Positions 35,535 to 44,696 of a stretch of 64,000 nt of DNA are shown here, in pieces (position 1 is the first letter of the stretch; the number at the start of each line of letters is the position of its first letter). Made by a program: the position numbers and the translations under genes. The notes beneath the pieces were generated by a model that did not search any database, was not told the DNA's origin, and was given only the letters and a program-made list of their open reading frames with translations. Source of the DNA: Hyphomicrobium sp. (GTDB lineage: Bacteria > Pseudomonadota > Alphaproteobacteria > Rhizobiales > Hyphomicrobiaceae); NCBI RefSeq assembly GCF_019753045.1, contig NZ_JAIELN010000008.1, positions 62,001-126,000 of the forward strand, read 5' to 3'.

Positions 35535-36797
35535 TCACCCCTTATTCGGTGGAGTCGGCCCGTTCGACGATGACGGTGCCGTCGAGGAATTCGGCCGTTC
35601 CTTGACGTTGACGCGGTCGCCATCGACGATGCCATCGGGAATGCTTTCGATCACCCGATCTTCCGGGGCGAGGCCGGACGCGACCTCGATCGTCGCGCCC
35701 AAGTCACGGCCAATCGTGATCGGCTTGAGGAGCACCTTATTGTCGGTGCCAACCGTCGCGACACGTAAACCTTCCTTGTCGAACAGGATAGCGCTCGCCG
35801 GGATGACCAAAACGTCGTGTTTGTTGCCGACCGTCAAATGGACGCTGGCATAGGCGCCCGGCATCAGCTCGCCGGCGGTGTTGTCGACGACGAGCTGCAT
35901 GCGCGTCGTGCCGGACGCGGCATCGACGGCGCCCGAGGAGGCTTCGACCTTCGCCTCATACTTCTTGCCGGGCCGCTCGGGGACAGTCAGCACGCCGATC
36001 GTGCCGTTCGGAATCATCGGCACGTAGACCTGGGGCACGTTCACATAAAGCCGCAGTTTGTGGACGTCGGCGACCACGAACATTTCCGAGCCGGTGGAGC
36101 TGCCGACGTTGATCAAATTTCCAACGTCGGTATTGCGCACGGTCACGATGCCGTCGAACGGCGCGATGATGCTTTTATATTGAGTGAGGGCCTTCAGCCG
36201 GTCGACGTTGGCCTGCGCCGACTTCACCAGCGCATTCTTCGATTCAAGGTCGGACAGCTTTTCATCGGCCTGCTGATGTGTGACGTAGCTGTTCGGCAGA
36301 AGCGCCTGGAAGCGTTGGTTGGTAACAGCGGCAAGGGCTGCGTTGGCCTTGGCGTTATTCAGGTCGTACTCTGCCTGAGACAGCTGCTGATCGAGATCGG
36401 GCGCATCGATTGTCGCGAGAACATCTCCCGTTTTTACGCGCGTGCCGATGTCGGCGTTGCGGCTCGCCACATAGCCGCTAACGCGCGCGAAAAGCGCAGC
36501 CTGATAGTAGGCATCCAAGCGGCCCGGCAGGTCGAGCAAGCCTATGCTCTGCTGAACGGCGGGCGTCGCAACGGCGACCGTCGGAATGGCGCGCGTGGCG
36601 GACTTATTCTTCAGTTGGGCGATGCTCTCTTCGCGGCTCGTGATGCCGGTAAAGGCAAGGAAGGCCGCGCCACCGATGAAAAGGAGGGCGAGCAGGGGCA
36701 TCTTCCAGCGGGATCGCCGCCGAGGCTTCTCAGCCGGATTTTCGGCCGAATTTGCCGGCCGGGTCTCTGGTGGCTTCACCAAGGGCTCATGCTGCAT
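35535..36797 (-). CDS. RND efflux periplasmic adaptor (membrane fusion protein)
   Basis: A 420-residue HlyD/AcrA-type adaptor: cytoplasmic leader, one membrane helix (MPLLALLFIGGAAFLAFTGI), lipoyl-like half-motif (LFARVSGYVASRNADIGTRVKTGDVLATIDAPDL), an alpha-helical hairpin with LPNSYVTHQQADEKLSDLE, the second half-motif (IIAPFDGIVTVRNTDVGNLI) and beta-barrel/membrane-proximal domains. It links the inner-membrane pump to an outer-membrane factor. ATG 36797 has AGGAG upstream and lies within the last codons of the permease gene (11-nt overlap). The C-terminus is a Ser/Pro-rich tail. Confidence 0.93.
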   Translation of the reverse strand: MQHEPLVKPPETRPANSAENPAEKPRRRSRWKMPLLALLFIGGAAFLAFTGITSREESIAQLKNKSATRAIPTVAVATPAVQQSIGLLDLPGRLDAYYQAALFARVSGYVASRNADIGTRVKTGDVLATIDAPDLDQQLSQAEYDLNNAKANAALAAVTNQRFQALLPNSYVTHQQADEKLSDLESKNALVKSAQANVDRLKALTQYKSIIAPFDGIVTVRNTDVGNLINVGSSTGSEMFVVADVHKLRLYVNVPQVYVPMIPNGTIGVLTVPERPGKKYEAKVEASSGAVDAASGTTRMQLVVDNTAGELMPGAYASVHLTVGNKHDVLVIPASAILFDKEGLRVATVGTDNKVLLKPITIGRDLGATIEVASGLAPEDRVIESIPDGIVDGDRVNVKERPNSSTAPSSSNGPTPPNKG

Positions 36798-39700
36798 GAA
36801 ATTCTCCTGGGATTGCACCTTGCGGCGACGATGAGCTTGCGGACTTCCGCCGGTGCATCAGGCTGAAAATGATCGGTACAATGAATAACGTGGCAGCCGT
36901 CGCGAACAAGAGGCCGCCGATCACCGCGCGGCCAAGCGGGGCATTCTGTTCGCCGCCCTCTCCGAGGCCCAAAGCCATCGGCGCCATGCCGATAACCATG
37001 GCAAGAGCAGTCATCAGGACGGGACGGATGCGGACGAAGCCGGATTCAAGCGCGGCCTGGATGGGATCGCCATGCTCTGCCAGCCGTTCCCGTGCAAAGG
37101 TCACGACCAAAACGGCGTTTGCGGTCGCGACGCCCATGCACATGATAGCTCCGGTCAGTGCGGGCACCGACAGCGTGGTTCCCGTGACGAACAGCATCCA
37201 GACGATGCCGACGAGAGCCGCGGGGAGCGCCATGATGATCACGAGCGGATCGCCCCAGGATTGAAAATTCACGACAATGAGCAGGTATATGAGCACAATG
37301 GCGCCGAGGAGCCCAAACAACATTCCGGCATAGGCATTGTTCATCGTGCGCACCTGGCCCAGGAGTACCGCGGTCGCGCCTTTCGGAAGATCGGCTTTGG
37401 TGGCATCGACGATTTTCTGGATGTCGGCTGCAACGGCACCGAGATCCCGGCCTTCGGTCGTCGTGAGGATCTGCACCATGGACTGGATGTCGTATTGCGA
37501 GACGACGGCGTTGCTCGTCATGCGATCGACACTTGCGACGGCTCCGAGAATTTGAGGCGCGCGTGCGTCGCTGGCGGTGATCGGCAAGTTCTCCAGAGAC
37601 GTCAGCGTGTCGAGCTTATACTGCGGTGTCTGGATGACGATCGGATAGGTTACGCCGTTCGCCTTGTTCAGCCAGTAAACGGGATTGACCTGACTCGTGC
37701 CGGCGAGGCTCGTGCTCAAGCTCGTAGTGACGTCCCGCTCGGTCACGCCGACATACTGGGCGCGCGAACGGTCTACGTTCACCTTGAAGCCCGGGTTCTC
37801 TCGCGATTGCTGAATGCGCGCGTCGGCGACCCCCGGGATCAGTTTGATTTGCCGCAAAATCTTTTCAGCATAGTCGAAATTCGGGCCAAGCTTCGGCCCT
37901 CTAATTTGGAGATCGATGGGTGTTGGCGCGCCGAAGTTCAAAATCTGACTGACGATATCGGCCGGCAGGAACGAGAAGGTCGCGCCAGGGAAACGCTTCG
38001 GCAGTTCGTCGCGCAGTTCCTTGACATATTCGGCCGTCGGCCGATGGTCCGGATTGAGCGCCACTTGGATATCGCCATCCTGCGGCCCGATCACGCCGGT
38101 GTTGTTATATGACATGTTGATGCCGCTGACCGGAATGCCGATGTTGTCGACCATGGCGCCGAGGTCTTTCGGCGAGATGATTTCACGAATGGCATCTTGG
38201 ATTTGCGCAAACGTTCGCGCGCTCTCCTCGACACGCGTGCCGATATCGAGCCTTACGTGCATTAGAATCTGACCAGAATCGACCCGAGGAAAGAAGTTGC
38301 GGCCGAGATAGGGTACCAGCAAGAACGACGCGCCGATAAATCCGAACGAGAAGATCAAAACAATCGTTCGATGTGCGAGCGCGCTTTCGAGAAGGCTGTG
38401 ATAGCCGCTACGCATTGCTTCGAAGTGATGTTCGAATGCGCGCTGAAAGAGAAGGAACGGATTGCGCGTGGGCCTTCCGTGTCCGTCGGGATCGTGCGTC
38501 TTCAGCAGGTACTTGGCCATCGTCGGCACGAGGGTGCGCGACAGTATGAAGGATGCGACCATGGCGAACACGACGGCTTCCGCCATCGGGACGAACAGAA
38601 ACCGCGCAACGCCTTCCAGGAAGAACATGGGGACGAAAACGATACATATGCAGAGCATCGAAACAAATGCGGGCGTCGCGATCTGATCGGCGCCGTCGAG
38701 GATGGCGGTCTCGACGTCCTTTCCTTGCTCCAGATGGTAGTTGATGTTTTCGATCGTCACCGTCGCTTCGTCGACGAGAATACCGACGGCCAGCGCCAAG
38801 CCGCCGAGCGTCATGACGTTCAGAGTTTCGCCGAGCGCCGACAGCATCGCTACCGATGCCAGCACGGCTAGCGGAATCGAGGTTGCGATGATGACCGTCG
38901 AACGGACGCTACCCAAGAAAAGAAGGATCATGATGCTCGTCAACGCGGCAGCAAGAATGCCTTCGTGAATGACGTTCTGCACGGCCGCGCGGACGAAGAT
39001 CGATTGATCTCCGAGTAGAGATATCGTCAGCGCATCGGGAAGCCCCGGTTTGATCTCCTGGATCTTGTCTTTGATGCCTTGGATGATGGCGAGCGTGGAA
39101 ACTGCGCCGTTTTTCAAGACCGACAGCAGAACGGAGCGGTTGCCGTTGACATGGACGATATTCTGTTGCGGAGGATTTCCGTCGCGGACGTGGGCGACAT
39201 CGCGGATGTAGACCATCGCGCCGTTGACGGCCTTGATCGGCAAGTCGCCCAAGGCACTGATGTCGGACGGCGCATTGTTCAGCTGCATCGTATATTCGGT
39301 GCCGCCGATTTTCTGGGTGCCGACCGGATTGATGAGGTTCTGGGCGCCGAAGGCGTTCGAGACATCCTGCGCGGAGAGGCCCTTCGCATGGAGGGCAGTG
39401 TCGTCAAGATCAATCTGGATCTGGCGCGTCTTGCCGCCGAATGGATAGGGGACGGCGGCTCCTGGCACCGTCACGAGCCGCGTGCGGATGTTGTTCAGGG
39501 CCAGGTCGGACAGGTTCTGTTCGGTCAAGCCGTCGCCGCCGAGTGCGAGCTGCACTATCGGCACGGTCGAAGCGCTATAGTTGAGAATGAGCGGCGGTGT
39601 CGCACCGGGCGGCAACTGCTTCAGGATGGTCTGCGAAACCGCGGTCACCTGTGCGTTGGCGGTGCGGATATCGGCGCCGGGCTGGAAGAAGATCTTGACG

Positions 39701-39975
39701 ATACCGATGCCATTGTACGAGTTCGCCTCGATATGTTCGATATCGTTGACGGTCGTCGTCAGGACGCGCTCGAACGGCGAAACCACTCGGCCCGCCATCT
39801 CATCAGGAGGCAGCCCCGTATATTGCCAGACCGTCGCGATGACGGGGATCCGAATTTCGGGGAAGATGTCGATCGGCGTGCGAAAAGCCGCCAATGTGCC
39901 CGTGAGAAGAATGAGCAGCGCCAACACGACGAATGTGTAAGGCGACCGCAGCGCTATACGCACCAATGCAGCCAT
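36787..39975 (-). CDS. RND-family efflux permease
   Basis: A 1062-residue AcrB/MexB-like inner-membrane pump. N-terminal TM1 (PYTFVVLALLILLTGTLAAF) is followed by the porter domain (PIDIFPEIRIPVIATVWQYTG, PGADIRTANAQV) and the transmembrane block with the proton-relay motif AVGILVDEATVTIENI, which has Asp-Glu where AcrB has two Asp. The second half repeats the pattern (PYLGRNFFPRVDSGQILMHV). It is transcribed with the adaptor gene; no outer-membrane TolC-like partner lies in the window. Substrate cannot be read. A LysR-type regulator is divergently encoded next to it. Confidence 0.95.
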   Translation of the reverse strand: MAALVRIALRSPYTFVVLALLILLTGTLAAFRTPIDIFPEIRIPVIATVWQYTGLPPDEMAGRVVSPFERVLTTTVNDIEHIEANSYNGIGIVKIFFQPGADIRTANAQVTAVSQTILKQLPPGATPPLILNYSASTVPIVQLALGGDGLTEQNLSDLALNNIRTRLVTVPGAAVPYPFGGKTRQIQIDLDDTALHAKGLSAQDVSNAFGAQNLINPVGTQKIGGTEYTMQLNNAPSDISALGDLPIKAVNGAMVYIRDVAHVRDGNPPQQNIVHVNGNRSVLLSVLKNGAVSTLAIIQGIKDKIQEIKPGLPDALTISLLGDQSIFVRAAVQNVIHEGILAAALTSIMILLFLGSVRSTVIIATSIPLAVLASVAMLSALGETLNVMTLGGLALAVGILVDEATVTIENINYHLEQGKDVETAILDGADQIATPAFVSMLCICIVFVPMFFLEGVARFLFVPMAEAVVFAMVASFILSRTLVPTMAKYLLKTHDPDGHGRPTRNPFLLFQRAFEHHFEAMRSGYHSLLESALAHRTIVLIFSFGFIGASFLLVPYLGRNFFPRVDSGQILMHVRLDIGTRVEESARTFAQIQDAIREIISPKDLGAMVDNIGIPVSGINMSYNNTGVIGPQDGDIQVALNPDHRPTAEYVKELRDELPKRFPGATFSFLPADIVSQILNFGAPTPIDLQIRGPKLGPNFDYAEKILRQIKLIPGVADARIQQSRENPGFKVNVDRSRAQYVGVTERDVTTSLSTSLAGTSQVNPVYWLNKANGVTYPIVIQTPQYKLDTLTSLENLPITASDARAPQILGAVASVDRMTSNAVVSQYDIQSMVQILTTTEGRDLGAVAADIQKIVDATKADLPKGATAVLLGQVRTMNNAYAGMLFGLLGAIVLIYLLIVVNFQSWGDPLVIIMALPAALVGIVWMLFVTGTTLSVPALTGAIMCMGVATANAVLVVTFARERLAEHGDPIQAALESGFVRIRPVLMTALAMVIGMAPMALGLGEGGEQNAPLGRAVIGGLLFATAATLFIVPIIFSLMHRRKSASSSSPQGAIPGEFHAA

Positions 39976-40249: not shown

Positions 40250-41173
40250 ATGGATCTCAAGCAACTTGAACATTTCGTCGCTGCCGCAGAAGAGCAGCAT
40301 TTCACTCGGGCTGCGCGCAAGATGAATATCGTTCAGTCCGGGCTTTCGGCCTCTATTCGGGCGCTCGAGCAGGAAATGGGCGCACCGTTGTTCGTCCGCA
40401 CTACGCGGCGGGTGGAGCTGACGGTTGCGGGCCAAGTGCTCTACGAGAGGGCTCTGCAGATCATTGCCGGCGTAAGAGACGCGCGTCGCGCGGTCGCGGC
40501 TATCAGCGGCTTGGAGCGGGGCTCACTGAGCATCGGGACGTGCGCCAGCCTTAATGCCTTTTTCGATCTTCCGCTCTTGCTCGGAGAGTTCCACAAGCTG
40601 CATCCGGATGTCGAAATTCGTCTCTGCCACAGCACCGCAGCGAAGCTGATGGACAAGGTAAAGGATGGCAGCATCGATTTGGCGTTCTTGCCGCTCTACG
40701 AAAAGAGCCGGGAAATCGTGTCGATGCCGATAGCATCCGATCGTCTGGTCGTTGCCCACCCTTTGGGGCATCCCCTCGAGGGACGCGAAAGCGTTTCGCT
40801 TCACAGCCTCGCCGGCGAGACGTTTGTCGACTTTCAGCTCGATCAGGGAACGCGGCGCATCGTCGACCGGGCATTCGCCGCCATCAACGTCTCGCGCAAG
40901 ACGGCGCTGGAGGTTGGCGATGTGCAGGTCCTGCTCGATCTCGTCGCGCGGGGCTTCGGCATCGCCCTCGTCCCGTACACATTCGTCATGGCGCGGGCCG
41001 CGCTATCGACGACACCCAAGATCGGAATTACGGCGCTCAGAAAGCCCGCGATCAAGTGGGAACTCGTCGCTGCATTCAGCGGCCGCGCGGGAGCGGCGCA
41101 ATCGCGCAATCCGGCCGTCGCTGCCTTCACCGGGGTCTTGGACAGGGTTCGCTCGGAGAAGATACTTTTCTGA
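40250..41173 (+). CDS. LysR-type transcriptional regulator
   Basis: A 307-residue LysR regulator. The N-terminal winged helix-turn-helix (MDLKQLEHFVAAAEEQHFTR, MNIVQSGLSASIRALEQEMG, LFVRTTRRVELT) is followed by the two-lobed effector domain (GSLSIGTCASLN, DVQVLLDLVARGFGIALVP). It is divergent from the RND pump, so control of that pump in response to a small molecule is the likely role; LysR proteins often autoregulate through the shared intergenic region. Confidence 0.93.
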   Translation: MDLKQLEHFVAAAEEQHFTRAARKMNIVQSGLSASIRALEQEMGAPLFVRTTRRVELTVAGQVLYERALQIIAGVRDARRAVAAISGLERGSLSIGTCASLNAFFDLPLLLGEFHKLHPDVEIRLCHSTAAKLMDKVKDGSIDLAFLPLYEKSREIVSMPIASDRLVVAHPLGHPLEGRESVSLHSLAGETFVDFQLDQGTRRIVDRAFAAINVSRKTALEVGDVQVLLDLVARGFGIALVPYTFVMARAALSTTPKIGITALRKPAIKWELVAAFSGRAGAAQSRNPAVAAFTGVLDRVRSEKILF

Positions 41174-41194: not shown

Positions 41195-43495
41195 CTACGC
41201 AGAGCTCGCGAGATAGACGTAGTAGGCCATCGCCGCGACCATTACGGGAACCGCTACGATGTGAAGGAATATCAGGCCCGTTTTCAGCCAGCGGATCGGT
41301 TCGACCCTCTTGTTCTCGCGCGCAATCGTGATGGCGATGATCACGCTCAACATGAAGTAGGTGAACAGGAACATTCGATCGGAGAGCGTTTCGATGTTGG
41401 CATCGATCTTCGGCAGCGCGAGATACAACGCGACAGCCGACAGCAACGCTGTGACCTGTATCGTCACGATCGCTTCGAAGTGATGCGTCGAGATGAAGAT
41501 CGACAGATAGGCGATGATCAGGATGAAGGCCAACGGCACGACGACCCTGAGAAAATAGTCCGTCGTTTCGCGTTTCATCAGCCATGCGAAGCTGGCTTTA
41601 TAAAATGGAAATACGCTCGGCTCGAGTGTTTGTGCGTCGACGGTGCGAACGAAGTCCACGTCGTATCCAACATACTGGTCCCTCGCATCCCAGCCATCCA
41701 CCTTCACCACATGGTCTCGCACCTGCTGCGGTGGAGGCTGAACGATGAACGGCGTGTTGCCGGGCTTCGGCCGGAGGTCGATCGAAAAGCGCTGCGTATC
41801 GAACGGATAATTTCTGAGGTCGGGCGCGTAAACGAATTTGCCCGTCACCTGATAGATTTTCATATGGTCGGGATAGGCGGCGCTTTGGCCGCCGTCGTGA
41901 ATGGCGCGGACGGTGATCTGGCGTTCGTTGGAGCCGGGCTCGAGATAGGCGTTGGCGAATTCGATCTGCTCGATCGAGGCGCCGCTCCGGTCATTCATCG
42001 ACAAATAGAAGTCTGCGAAGAAGGTCTTTTCGGAGTCGTCGATGCGTTCGGCATGGATGAGATCTATGTCGGCGTAAAGCGTGTCGATCCTTTGCAGGCT
42101 CTGATCGCGGAGGTGAAGGAACTGGATCGGTGCAAGCTGCGGGCGGCTGCGGCCGCGCGGCAGCATGACGATCAGCGGTGTCCGGGCTGCGGCGCGAGAT
42201 CCCGGCTGGAACGACCAATTGTCGAAGCGTCCCTTGAAGATCCCGCGGCCAGATGCGTATCCGGTCTTAAGCCGGTTGACGATCAGATTGCGAACGTCGG
42301 GTATCTCCGCGGTGATTTCCGCGGAGCGCGCCGCTTCCGCGATCAGACTGACGACATCGGCATATTGTGAGCCGACCGACAACGCACGTATGTTGGGAGT
42401 ATCGAGGACGTTGAGGGGAATATCCTCGTCTCTCGGCTTGCACGTTCCGTCCTTCCAGCCGGGCGCACTTGAATTTTTCGCGCCCTCGAAAATCCATTGG
42501 CTCGGATATGGCGTGCTCGAAATGAGTTCGCGCAGCCTCTCGCTATAGCCGTCGGGAAGCTCGTTCCAGGCAAGCTGATAGACATCGTTCGCGTAGGCGT
42601 CCGCGCCTTGGTTCGTGACTGAATCGACGCGGCCGGTGACGAACAGCGGCGGCGTGAAGCCTGCGTCCTGAAACTGCTTTACGACGTCCTTCATGCGGTC
42701 GCCGCCGACTGCGAGGAAGACGATCCCGACATTTTTCGACTTGAGGTCCGCGACGGCGGCGGCGAGTTCAGCCGGATCGAGCTTGTCGGCCGTGAGTTGC
42801 AGCCGATGGTCGGCGACAAGGCCTCCGGTCAGAAACTCTTTAAGGCTGTCACTGAAATTGGTGCTTCCAAGCAAGGATTGGATGCCGATGAAGGCGGGCC
42901 GTTCGAAATGCGCTAGCTTCACAAACTCGGCGATGACCGGCATGCGCTCCTCGTCCTCGGAGGCGCGAGTCGTGAAGACGTTGGGGTAATCCTTGATGAG
43001 GTCGGTTATCGATATGTCGGAGATGAACGGAATGCCGGTCGCCTTCAACTCCTTGCCGTTCGCATCGAGTGCCGCCTTGGCGCGGGTCGAGTTCGATAGG
43101 CCGATCATTGCAATTGTCTGGGGATCGGAGATGGCGGCCGCCATATTGTCAATCGTGGTCTGCGGCAGACGCTGATCGTCGAGAATGTTTAAAACGACCT
43201 TGCGGCCGGCAATTCCGCCATCCTGATTGATGCGGTGCTGGGCCATCGCAGTGAGACGTTTGATAGCCTTCATTTGTCCATTGTCGTAGCAGTCATCGTT
43301 TCGCGATGTGACGAAGATCGGCATGACGAGGGGAGGGCGCGCTGCGGCTTCCGCTTTATCCATGGCTTCCGCAATTGATGGCGCGTAGGCGCCAGTAATC
43401 AACAAGGTTCCGAAAGCGGCAACGGCCTGCACGGCCGATGCACGGCGAAGAACGTTCGCGCACAATTCAGACAAAACTGATCCCACGTTTCCCAC
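41195..43495 (-). CDS. Fusion of type-1 periplasmic binding domain and pentameric ligand-gated ion channel
   Basis: A 766-residue protein with two recognisable parts. After a signal segment, residues about 55-420 are a type-1 periplasmic binding fold of the Leu/Ile/Val-binding kind (VMPIFVTSRNDDCYDNG, HRINQDGGIAGRKVVLNI, DPQTIAMIGLSNSTRA, FTTRASEDEER). Residues about 445-640 form a Cys-loop-receptor-like extracellular domain with NYPFDTQRFSIDL (the YPFD motif of pLGICs, without flanking cysteines). Four helices follow: M1 with the conserved Pro (FLRVVVPLAFILIIAYLSIF), M2 (IVTIQVTALLSAVALYLALP), M3 and M4. The M1-Pro, the LPK after M2 and the spacing match GLIC-like channels. Start: GTG 43495, or GTG 43486 behind GGGAA. 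Ligand and ion selectivity unknown. Confidence 0.85.
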   Translation of the reverse strand: MGNVGSVLSELCANVLRRASAVQAVAAFGTLLITGAYAPSIAEAMDKAEAAARPPLVMPIFVTSRNDDCYDNGQMKAIKRLTAMAQHRINQDGGIAGRKVVLNILDDQRLPQTTIDNMAAAISDPQTIAMIGLSNSTRAKAALDANGKELKATGIPFISDISITDLIKDYPNVFTTRASEDEERMPVIAEFVKLAHFERPAFIGIQSLLGSTNFSDSLKEFLTGGLVADHRLQLTADKLDPAELAAAVADLKSKNVGIVFLAVGGDRMKDVVKQFQDAGFTPPLFVTGRVDSVTNQGADAYANDVYQLAWNELPDGYSERLRELISSTPYPSQWIFEGAKNSSAPGWKDGTCKPRDEDIPLNVLDTPNIRALSVGSQYADVVSLIAEAARSAEITAEIPDVRNLIVNRLKTGYASGRGIFKGRFDNWSFQPGSRAAARTPLIVMLPRGRSRPQLAPIQFLHLRDQSLQRIDTLYADIDLIHAERIDDSEKTFFADFYLSMNDRSGASIEQIEFANAYLEPGSNERQITVRAIHDGGQSAAYPDHMKIYQVTGKFVYAPDLRNYPFDTQRFSIDLRPKPGNTPFIVQPPPQQVRDHVVKVDGWDARDQYVGYDVDFVRTVDAQTLEPSVFPFYKASFAWLMKRETTDYFLRVVVPLAFILIIAYLSIFISTHHFEAIVTIQVTALLSAVALYLALPKIDANIETLSDRMFLFTYFMLSVIIAITIARENKRVEPIRWLKTGLIFLHIVAVPVMVAAMAYYVYLASSA

Positions 43496-43811: not shown

Positions 43812-44696
43812 ATGCAGAACAATTCGGCGTCATGGCGTTCGCTGCTTTGGCCATGGCGCTCGCCCGCTGATCCAGACGACGTCAGGGAGGCGCGCAAAGC
43901 AGTCGCGCACTTAAAGCCGGGAGTCGTGATTACGGGCGGGGCGAGCGGCATCGGACTGGCTCTTGCGCAGCGTTTCATCGAGGCCGGACATGAAACAGCC
44001 ATCGCCGGGCGGACCCAATCCAAGCTCGAAGCAGCTGCCGAGCAACTCAAGTCGCGCACAGGTTCATCGGTCACGACGATTGTCTGTGATGTCAGTCAGC
44101 CGGATGCGCTGGACAAGATAACCGCAGGCCTCGGAGGGGCCGGGCTTTATCTCGACGTGCTCGTCAATAACGCCGGGATGGGTCTCGCCGGACCATTTCT
44201 CAGCCATTCGCAGGCTGATCTTTCGCGCCTCATTGCGATCAATATCGAGACCGTGACGCGTCTATCACGGGCAGTGCTGCCCGATATGCTGGCCCGTCAA
44301 CGTGGCGGTGTTTTGAACGTCGCGTCGCTCGGGGCAGATGTCCCCGGGCCGAACCAGGCGGCTTACTATGCAAGCAAATCATATGTCGTTTCGCTGACGG
44401 AGGCGATTGCCAGCGAATACTCCGGGCAGGGGGTCAGGATTTCCGCTCTGCTGCCGGGGCCGGTCAATACGGCCTTTCATCAAGAAATGGGGGCTGAGCA
44501 GTCGCTCTATCGTTGGGTGTTACCTTCGATGTCGGCCGATAGCGTGGCGCGGAGCGCTTATCGCGGCTTCATGTTCGGCAATCGCGTGATTGTGCCGGGC
44601 ATATCCAATATTTTCTTCTACGTCGCGCTCAAGGTGCTGCCGCACACAGTCACTGTACCCTTTGTCTACTGGCTTTTGCGACGGCCGAATATTTAA
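43812..44696 (+). CDS. Short-chain dehydrogenase/reductase
   Basis: A 294-residue classical SDR: nucleotide-binding VITGGASGIGLALAQRF (TGxxxGxG), LVNNAGMGLAGPF, and catalytic YYASKSYV (Tyr-x-x-x-Lys) with the upstream Ser in NVASLGAD. An unusual feature is the C-terminal extension with hydrophobic stretches (NIFFYVALKVLPHTVTVPFVYWLL), typical of membrane-associated SDRs acting on lipids or ketone intermediates. The 30-residue N-terminal extension before the Rossmann fold is rare. Its substrate is unknown; the next genes (esterase, KAS III) point towards lipid metabolism. Confidence 0.9.
   Translation: MQNNSASWRSLLWPWRSPADPDDVREARKAVAHLKPGVVITGGASGIGLALAQRFIEAGHETAIAGRTQSKLEAAAEQLKSRTGSSVTTIVCDVSQPDALDKITAGLGGAGLYLDVLVNNAGMGLAGPFLSHSQADLSRLIAINIETVTRLSRAVLPDMLARQRGGVLNVASLGADVPGPNQAAYYASKSYVVSLTEAIASEYSGQGVRISALLPGPVNTAFHQEMGAEQSLYRWVLPSMSADSVARSAYRGFMFGNRVIVPGISNIFFYVALKVLPHTVTVPFVYWLLRRPNI

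Follow-up and report, generated by a model that had tools for sequence, protein, structure and literature searches.

Fusions of a type-I periplasmic-binding protein (PBP-I) domain to channels of the pentameric ligand-gated ion channel (pLGIC) family were described in Bradyrhizobium japonicum and Magnetospirillum magnetotacticum by Tasneem et al. (2004; PMC549065), who drew a parallel with glutamate receptors and proposed a role in chemotaxis. According to a review published in 2022 (PMC9221113), many N-terminal domains of pLGICs resemble periplasmic binding proteins, and Jaiteh et al. (2016; PMC4795631) presented such domain associations as known from genomes alone. DeCLIC was named in 2022 by Lycksell et al. 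(PMC9897478) as the sole family member for which the structure of an additional N-terminal domain was then known. Among the matches listed from open-licence PubMed Central, we found no characterised binding-protein-fused bacterial pLGIC, no function, ligand, current or structure for PBP-fused pLGICs, and no report on a pLGIC in Hyphomicrobium. The layout considered here is not new, since it has been in print since 2004 (PMC549065); the new detail is a subfamily in which none of 62 proteins has a Pfam channel match.

The window, a stretch of 64,000 nucleotides, contains an open reading frame (ORF) of 766 amino acids running from 43495 to 41195 on the minus strand, with a GTG start at 43495 and a stop at 41195. 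The plus-strand reading of the same interval contains stops. The coordinates in the first-pass annotation were exact, with the strand left unstated. Scanning of a species-genome collection with two short motifs yielded 74 related loci, and alignment A2 was composed of 61 full-length proteins and the window protein (62 in total); the remaining 13 of the 74 loci, whose frames were cut or split, were excluded. Among the named records found, the closest was the copy of H. facile DSM 1565 (L031), with 94% identity across the full protein. Because of this full-length copy and the 74 loci, the ORF is not a chance one; a wrong or accidental frame was ruled out, as the frame is intact and conserved among relatives. 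Hyphomicrobium facile belongs to the family Hyphomicrobiaceae, and the host of the gene is probably Hyphomicrobium. This genus is methylotrophic, in agreement with the methylotroph-like host proposed earlier. The features of the gene and its flanks are as follows.

41195..43495, minus strand: whole ORF of 766 aa, PBP-I domain plus pLGIC subunit (Pfam, phmmer, AlphaFold2 model; 94% identical relative)
43346..43495, minus strand: hydrophobic N-terminus, putative export signal or anchor, about residues 1-50 (sequence; low-confidence helix 5-52 in the model)
42206..43330, minus strand: PBP-I (Venus flytrap) domain, about residues 56-430 (Peripla_BP_6, 8e-18; Foldseek 4q6b, 1.3e-16)
43289..43291, minus strand: Cys69, candidate disulfide partner (paired occurrence with Cys352)
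42440..42442, minus strand: Cys352, candidate disulfide partner (paired occurrence with Cys69)
41570..42175, minus strand: pLGIC extracellular beta-sandwich domain (ECD), about residues 441-642 (model strands; Foldseek to GLIC, 5.1e-17 for the channel part)
41798..41809, minus strand: YPFD Pro-loop motif, residues 563-566 (P564 and D566 in 62/62)
41198..41569, minus strand: four-helix pore domain M1-M4, residues 643-766 (helices from the model and DSSP; M1 Pro654 in 62/62)
41408..41482, minus strand: M2, which lines the pore, with LPK, residues 672-696 (acid at -2', Thr at 6' and Leu at 9' by alignment to GLIC)
40250..41173, plus strand: LysR-family regulator converging on the channel gene, context (Pfam; its cluster is common to 9/75 loci)
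43812..44696, plus strand: short-chain dehydrogenase diverging from the channel gene, context (Pfam)

The first-pass annotation had read the protein as a periplasmic-binding fold at about residues 55-420 joined to a channel, and this two-domain architecture stood: Pfam, the structural model and Foldseek all place a PBP-I domain N-terminal to the ECD in one polypeptide and one intact frame. In the window protein, Peripla_BP_6 matched residues 84-310 (E 8e-18) and ANF_receptor gave 8e-6; the former model, which had been named as a check, was matched by all 62 members of A2. When the family profile of the binding domain was compared with the PDB, Leu/Ile/Val-type binding proteins were recovered down to 1.4e-13, and the calcium-sensing receptor weakly. 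The AlphaFold2 model of the whole protein (pLDDT 84.5, pTM 0.79) predicted the binding fold, the immunoglobulin-like ECD and the four-helix pore, which bore out the structure anticipated for it. In Foldseek, this model was matched at 1.3e-16 by 4q6b, a binding protein in complex with Leu, and the matches listed also included the extracellular domains of mGluR, CaSR, GABA-B and taste receptors. Since the best 50 rows of this search consisted solely of PBPs and receptors, a separate model and search were run for the channel part.

The C-terminal part of the window protein (about residues 441-766) is, as judged from the sequence and the predicted structure, a complete pLGIC subunit. The Cys-loop-like domain with YPFD, the four helices, the M1 proline and the LPK after M2 noted in the first reading were all found: the pore helices are predicted at 644-667, 673-693, 702-727, and 735-765, the M1 proline is P654, and LPK occupies 694-696. 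The Pro and Asp of the Pro-loop, the Arg before M1 and the M1 Pro, which are characteristic of pLGICs, are each present in 62/62 proteins. Modelled alone (pLDDT 86.5), this part showed the immunoglobulin-like ECD followed by the four-helix pore. It matched wild-type GLIC 3eam at 2.5e-16 and, at 5.1e-17, the GLIC mutant 5mzr (TMq 0.63, rmsd 5.4); TMq was 0.59-0.66 over the matches listed. At the sequence level, phmmer against the PDB detected a GLIC/ELIC chimera (1.5e-7 over 539-727), and a profile of residues 440-766 had 9ftg, the chimera 4yeu, and 6v4a as its top three matches at 3e-9, followed by GLIC entries from 3e-8 over almost the whole length and ELIC-type entries at 3e-7. We take 6v4a to be DeCLIC, and the positions -2', 6' and 9' were assigned by alignment to the GLIC chimera on what we take to be the GLIC residue numbering.

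The Pfam models Neur_chan_LBD and Neur_chan_memb, to which the first-pass annotation had pointed for a profile check, gave no match in the window protein at E <= 1 and none in the 62 aligned members at E <= 0.01, while the NCBIfam LIC model reached just 0.0027, far short of its cut-off. As the profile and fold searches reach prokaryotic pLGIC structures, we read the missing Pfam match as divergence from the models, and the proposition that the protein is not a pLGIC because Pfam fails was ruled out. When short pLGICs and those of the LivJ type were scanned, one reached the Neur_chan cut-off; thus, these models cover prokaryotic pLGICs poorly.

Comparison with the described systems placed the window protein closest in plan to the Bradyrhizobium and Magnetospirillum fusions, which are likened to it by their description (PMC549065) and likewise have an N-terminal PBP-I domain, an ECD and a four-transmembrane pore in alphaproteobacteria. 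GLIC and ELIC have the same ECD and pore fold (GLIC TMq about 0.6, rmsd about 5 Å), the Pro-loop and the acid before M2; however, a PBP domain at the N-terminus is absent from both. The prokaryotic pLGIC DeCLIC, which ranks in the top three of the profile search, resembles the window protein in having an additional N-terminal region, but the two lobes of that region were likened in its description to calcium-binding and other regulatory domains, not to PBP-I. An external Venus-flytrap domain is also found in mGluR, CaSR and GABA-B (Foldseek) and in NMDA-type receptors (PMC549065), whereas the membrane parts of all of them are unrelated to that of the window protein, so that the likeness concerns the layout only. 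In the ionotropic glutamate receptor, the pore is inserted in a PBP-II domain (PMC549065), unlike the four-transmembrane pLGIC pore seen here. The glutamate-receptor parallel of the first-pass annotation holds in layout and had already been drawn by Tasneem et al. (2004; PMC549065).

The combination of PBP and pLGIC was retained in 61/74 loci, i.e., in every one that yielded a full-length protein. Record titles assign 43 of the 74 loci to Hyphomicrobium (21), Filomicrobium (11) and Hyphomicrobiaceae (11); the remainder are titled mainly as Rhizobiales, Proteobacteria and Devosia MAGs, with four Pontibacter records (Bacteroidota) and one MAG titled Akkermansia. In the order sample, a family member was present in 16 of 297 genomes, and a broader channel profile at 1e-5 matched 38 of the 297, one of which (G288) was of the MscS type. 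In the class sample of 385 genomes, with two candidates scored per genome, a full-length match occurred solely in the own genome, and one further genome matched the binding part alone. The own genome (4.52 Mb, 35 contigs) gave a single pLGIC match, with 5/5 candidates scored in one search and 7/13 in a second. The four Pontibacter records (L085, L087, L091, and L098) carry a window-family channel in a common gene neighbourhood, with the channel gene split into pieces in L098, which suggests cross-phylum transfer. Carriage on plasmids was also considered and dropped, as tblastn against a plasmid collection at 1e-5 gave no match.

Within alignment A2, the residues P564, D566, Q568, W602, R642, P654, T682, L685, Y691, and D706 are invariant (62/62). 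Residue 674 (-2') is E or D in 56 of the 62, N in 5 and G in 1; the 0' position of M2 is I, T, V, L or A, and 9' is Leu throughout. In the set of Jaiteh et al. (PMC4795631), 0' was basic in 79% and 9' was Leu in 75%. Mean pairwise identity increased from 37% in the PBP domain, the most variable part, to 48% in the ECD, 52% in the transmembrane domain and 77% in M2. The joint between PBP domain and ECD is near-invariant (G416 61/62, G422 62/62, W427 60/62, F429 62/62). A fast-changing binding domain on a fixed joint fits a changing ligand acting on a constant gate. Cys69 and Cys352 are both present in 49 proteins, both missing in 13, and never found singly; their coevolution as strong evidence of a disulfide was downgraded, because the tree accounts for it by one single change.

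A second group of fusions, with LivJ-like and well-kept PBP domains, was found in L027 (identical to L105), L106, L107, L182, L170, and L206-L209; the ORF of L170 starts within the PBP domain. Their domain order is the same as in the window protein, and hhalign pairs the channel profiles of the two groups (A3 against A6) at 99.3, E 4e-20, with stronger Peripla_BP_6 matches of 1e-34 to 3e-49 in L027, L106, L107, L182, and L206-L209. Unlike the window family, L027, L106 and L107 keep the Thr of the pocket motif and have PPR before M2 where the window protein has EAI, a substitution which suggests that their ion selectivity may differ. A tree of 47 channel domains selected from the fetched loci, including 21 window-family rows, placed these 21 rows on one side of a 100/100 branch. 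The window family and five LivJ-type fusions lay on one side of a 90/83 branch, a support under the threshold that the program stars. The window family has a long stem (2.83), and a program warning pointed to long branches that meet within the LivJ-type group. A single origin of the fusion in both groups would be allowed by this topology at 90/83 with long stems, and independent origins of the two PBP fusions were not supported. Short pLGICs without a PBP domain were also encountered, namely a tandem pair in L018 (158-1222 and 1306-2361) and single copies (L174, L175, and L176) beside the fused one in genomes G177, G289, and G001.

The channel profile also matched, through the extracellular part alone, proteins of about 1,020-1,105 aa in which a PBP-I domain and a pLGIC-type extracellular domain are followed by an MscS-type pore. 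Peripla_BP_6 and the MscS beta domain were detected in 8/8 proteins scanned (L187, L189, L190, L193, L194, L195, L196, and L199), of which L189 also ends in a cNMP-binding domain; L189 and L193 extend beyond the fetched stretch. In L108/L171, an in-frame TAG interrupts the MscS-linked protein. When taken from L187, L189, L190, L193 and the second piece of L108, the middle domains aligned with the LivJ-type ECD over 199 columns (hhalign 99.6, E 6e-25) and with the window family over 105 columns (93.6, E 2e-7). These middle domains have no YPFD, and a PDB profile search with them detected no channel, the single match being a designed protein (E 0.039); hence, no solved structure supports them by sequence. 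In the phylum sample, 33/334 genomes matched L187 at 1e-30, a figure in which both pore kinds are counted and two candidates were scored per genome. Both kinds occur together in genome G716 by Pfam and profile (L195 and L209), and genome G752 has the four-helix L206 and a frame of 1,024 aa whose match to L187 extends to the MscS part. No paper on a PBP-MscS fusion was among the matches listed from open-licence PubMed Central. With a probability that we place a little short of even, the PBP domain and the pLGIC-type ECD may form a portable sensor cassette of proteobacteria, set on two unrelated pores (four-helix and MscS-type), through which capture of an external solute would gate ion flow irrespective of pore type and symmetry. 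The pore of pLGICs is five-fold symmetric and that of the MscS type seven-fold, so the MscS-linked cousins widen the question to one sensor kind serving two pore symmetries.

The identity of the ligand was approached through a pocket alignment in which 21 A2 rows (out of 62) were set beside other fetched binding proteins and fusions. The first Ser motif is kept, with S136 being Ser in 53/62, R138 Arg in 56/62, and S162 Ser in 55/62. Position 163, which aligns with the second-motif Thr of LivJ/mGluR-type domains in an alignment that may be one residue off, is V, L or I in 57/62; some stand-alone proteins in the pocket alignment likewise have no Thr there. In LivJ and mGluR, the Ser and the Thr at these positions hold the alpha-amino acid. 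Thus, of the alpha-amino-acid motif of the LivJ/HAAT type, the Ser is kept and the Thr replaced, which disfavours an alpha-amino acid and weakens the amino-acid ligand put forward in the first-pass annotation. In addition, the title of 4q6w, among the nearest PBP matches, names a complex with '3-Hydroxy Be...', so this class of binding proteins is not restricted to amino acids. An organic acid or another solute would be more likely than a plain alpha-amino acid.

The reading that we favour, at slightly better than even probability, is that the protein would be an inner-membrane pLGIC gated through a periplasmic Venus-flytrap domain, one per subunit. Five identical subunits would assemble, given that the searches of the own genome brought up only this one pLGIC gene. 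A small molecule would close the lobes of the binding domain, and the motion would pass from the conserved PBP-to-ECD joint to the Pro-loop and on to M2, altering the opening of the pore. The pore should favour cations because of the acid at -2', and the ligand might either open or close it. In favour of this mechanism are the two domains in one intact frame, their predicted folds, the kept layout and the gating motifs P564, D566, W602, R642, P654, and L685, all present in 62/62. A PBP and ECD pair of the same kind also occurs on an MscS-type pore in other bacteria, which suggests that the two domains work together as a sensor. Against it stands the Peripla_BP_6 value of 8e-18 in the window protein versus 3e-49 in the LivJ-type fusion L027; with this weaker score and the Thr lost in 57/62, the pocket could be degenerate.

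Such degeneration is the starting point of another explanation, in which the PBP domain no longer binds a ligand and instead contributes to assembly, to stability or to contact with another periplasmic partner, while pH, calcium or another ion gates the channel as in GLIC or DeCLIC. Apart from the pocket Thr and the Pfam score, it draws on GLIC being the nearest fold of the channel part and on the described action of calcium on the extra N-terminal domain of DeCLIC; however, the pocket-side residues S136, R138, and S162 are still conserved and the domain is retained in 61/61 full-length relatives, and we regard this explanation as unlikely. It is likewise unlikely, in our estimate, that the PBP domain just concentrates the ligand or hands it over to an ordinary inter-subunit site of the ECD that does the gating. 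This arrangement would be close to the proposal of Tasneem et al. (2004; PMC549065) and agrees with a complete ECD whose conservation exceeds that of the PBP domain, but the joint residues are near-invariant, and the pairing of PBP and ECD on an MscS-type pore suggests one working unit. Gating by a captured proteinogenic amino acid, the version of the first-pass annotation, is highly doubtful: the nearest solved PBPs among the matches listed are mostly titled as Leu/Ile/Val-type or amino-acid binding, with amino-acid receptors ranking behind them, whereas another residue stands in place of the Thr in the amino-acid motif and the class, as seen from the 4q6w complex, is not confined to amino acids. 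For the favoured gating by the flytrap domain, the family offers 61 full-length relatives, some of them from named strains, a binding domain suited to ligand screening and near-invariant joint residues to test. Work on it would show how a Venus-flytrap domain drives a pore of the nicotinic-receptor type.

The channel gene stands alone by orientation, since the LysR gene converges on it and the dehydrogenase gene diverges from it. Neighbours were surveyed in 75 loci (the 74 and the window), with genes taken roughly as the longest non-overlapping ORFs, a procedure that lost the channel gene in 1/75. No conserved operon partner was found among these 75 loci; the largest neighbour cluster covered 13/75, of which the window and its close relatives account for 8, and gene order was common to near relatives alone. 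The most widespread neighbour, in those 13/75 loci and on a side that varies, is an RND-pump-like gene pair (family read from the sequence), which in the window lies at 35535-39975 on the minus strand and adjoins the LysR gene. In one clade (L090, L092, L097, L099, and L100), a common gene lies directly upstream of the PBP-pLGIC gene on the same strand, and that of L090 is an MscK-like mechanosensitive channel. In L059 and L060, the PBP-pLGIC gene is directly followed downstream by a common gene, whose L060 copy is an ion channel of the voltage-gated type (Ion_trans, 1e-14).
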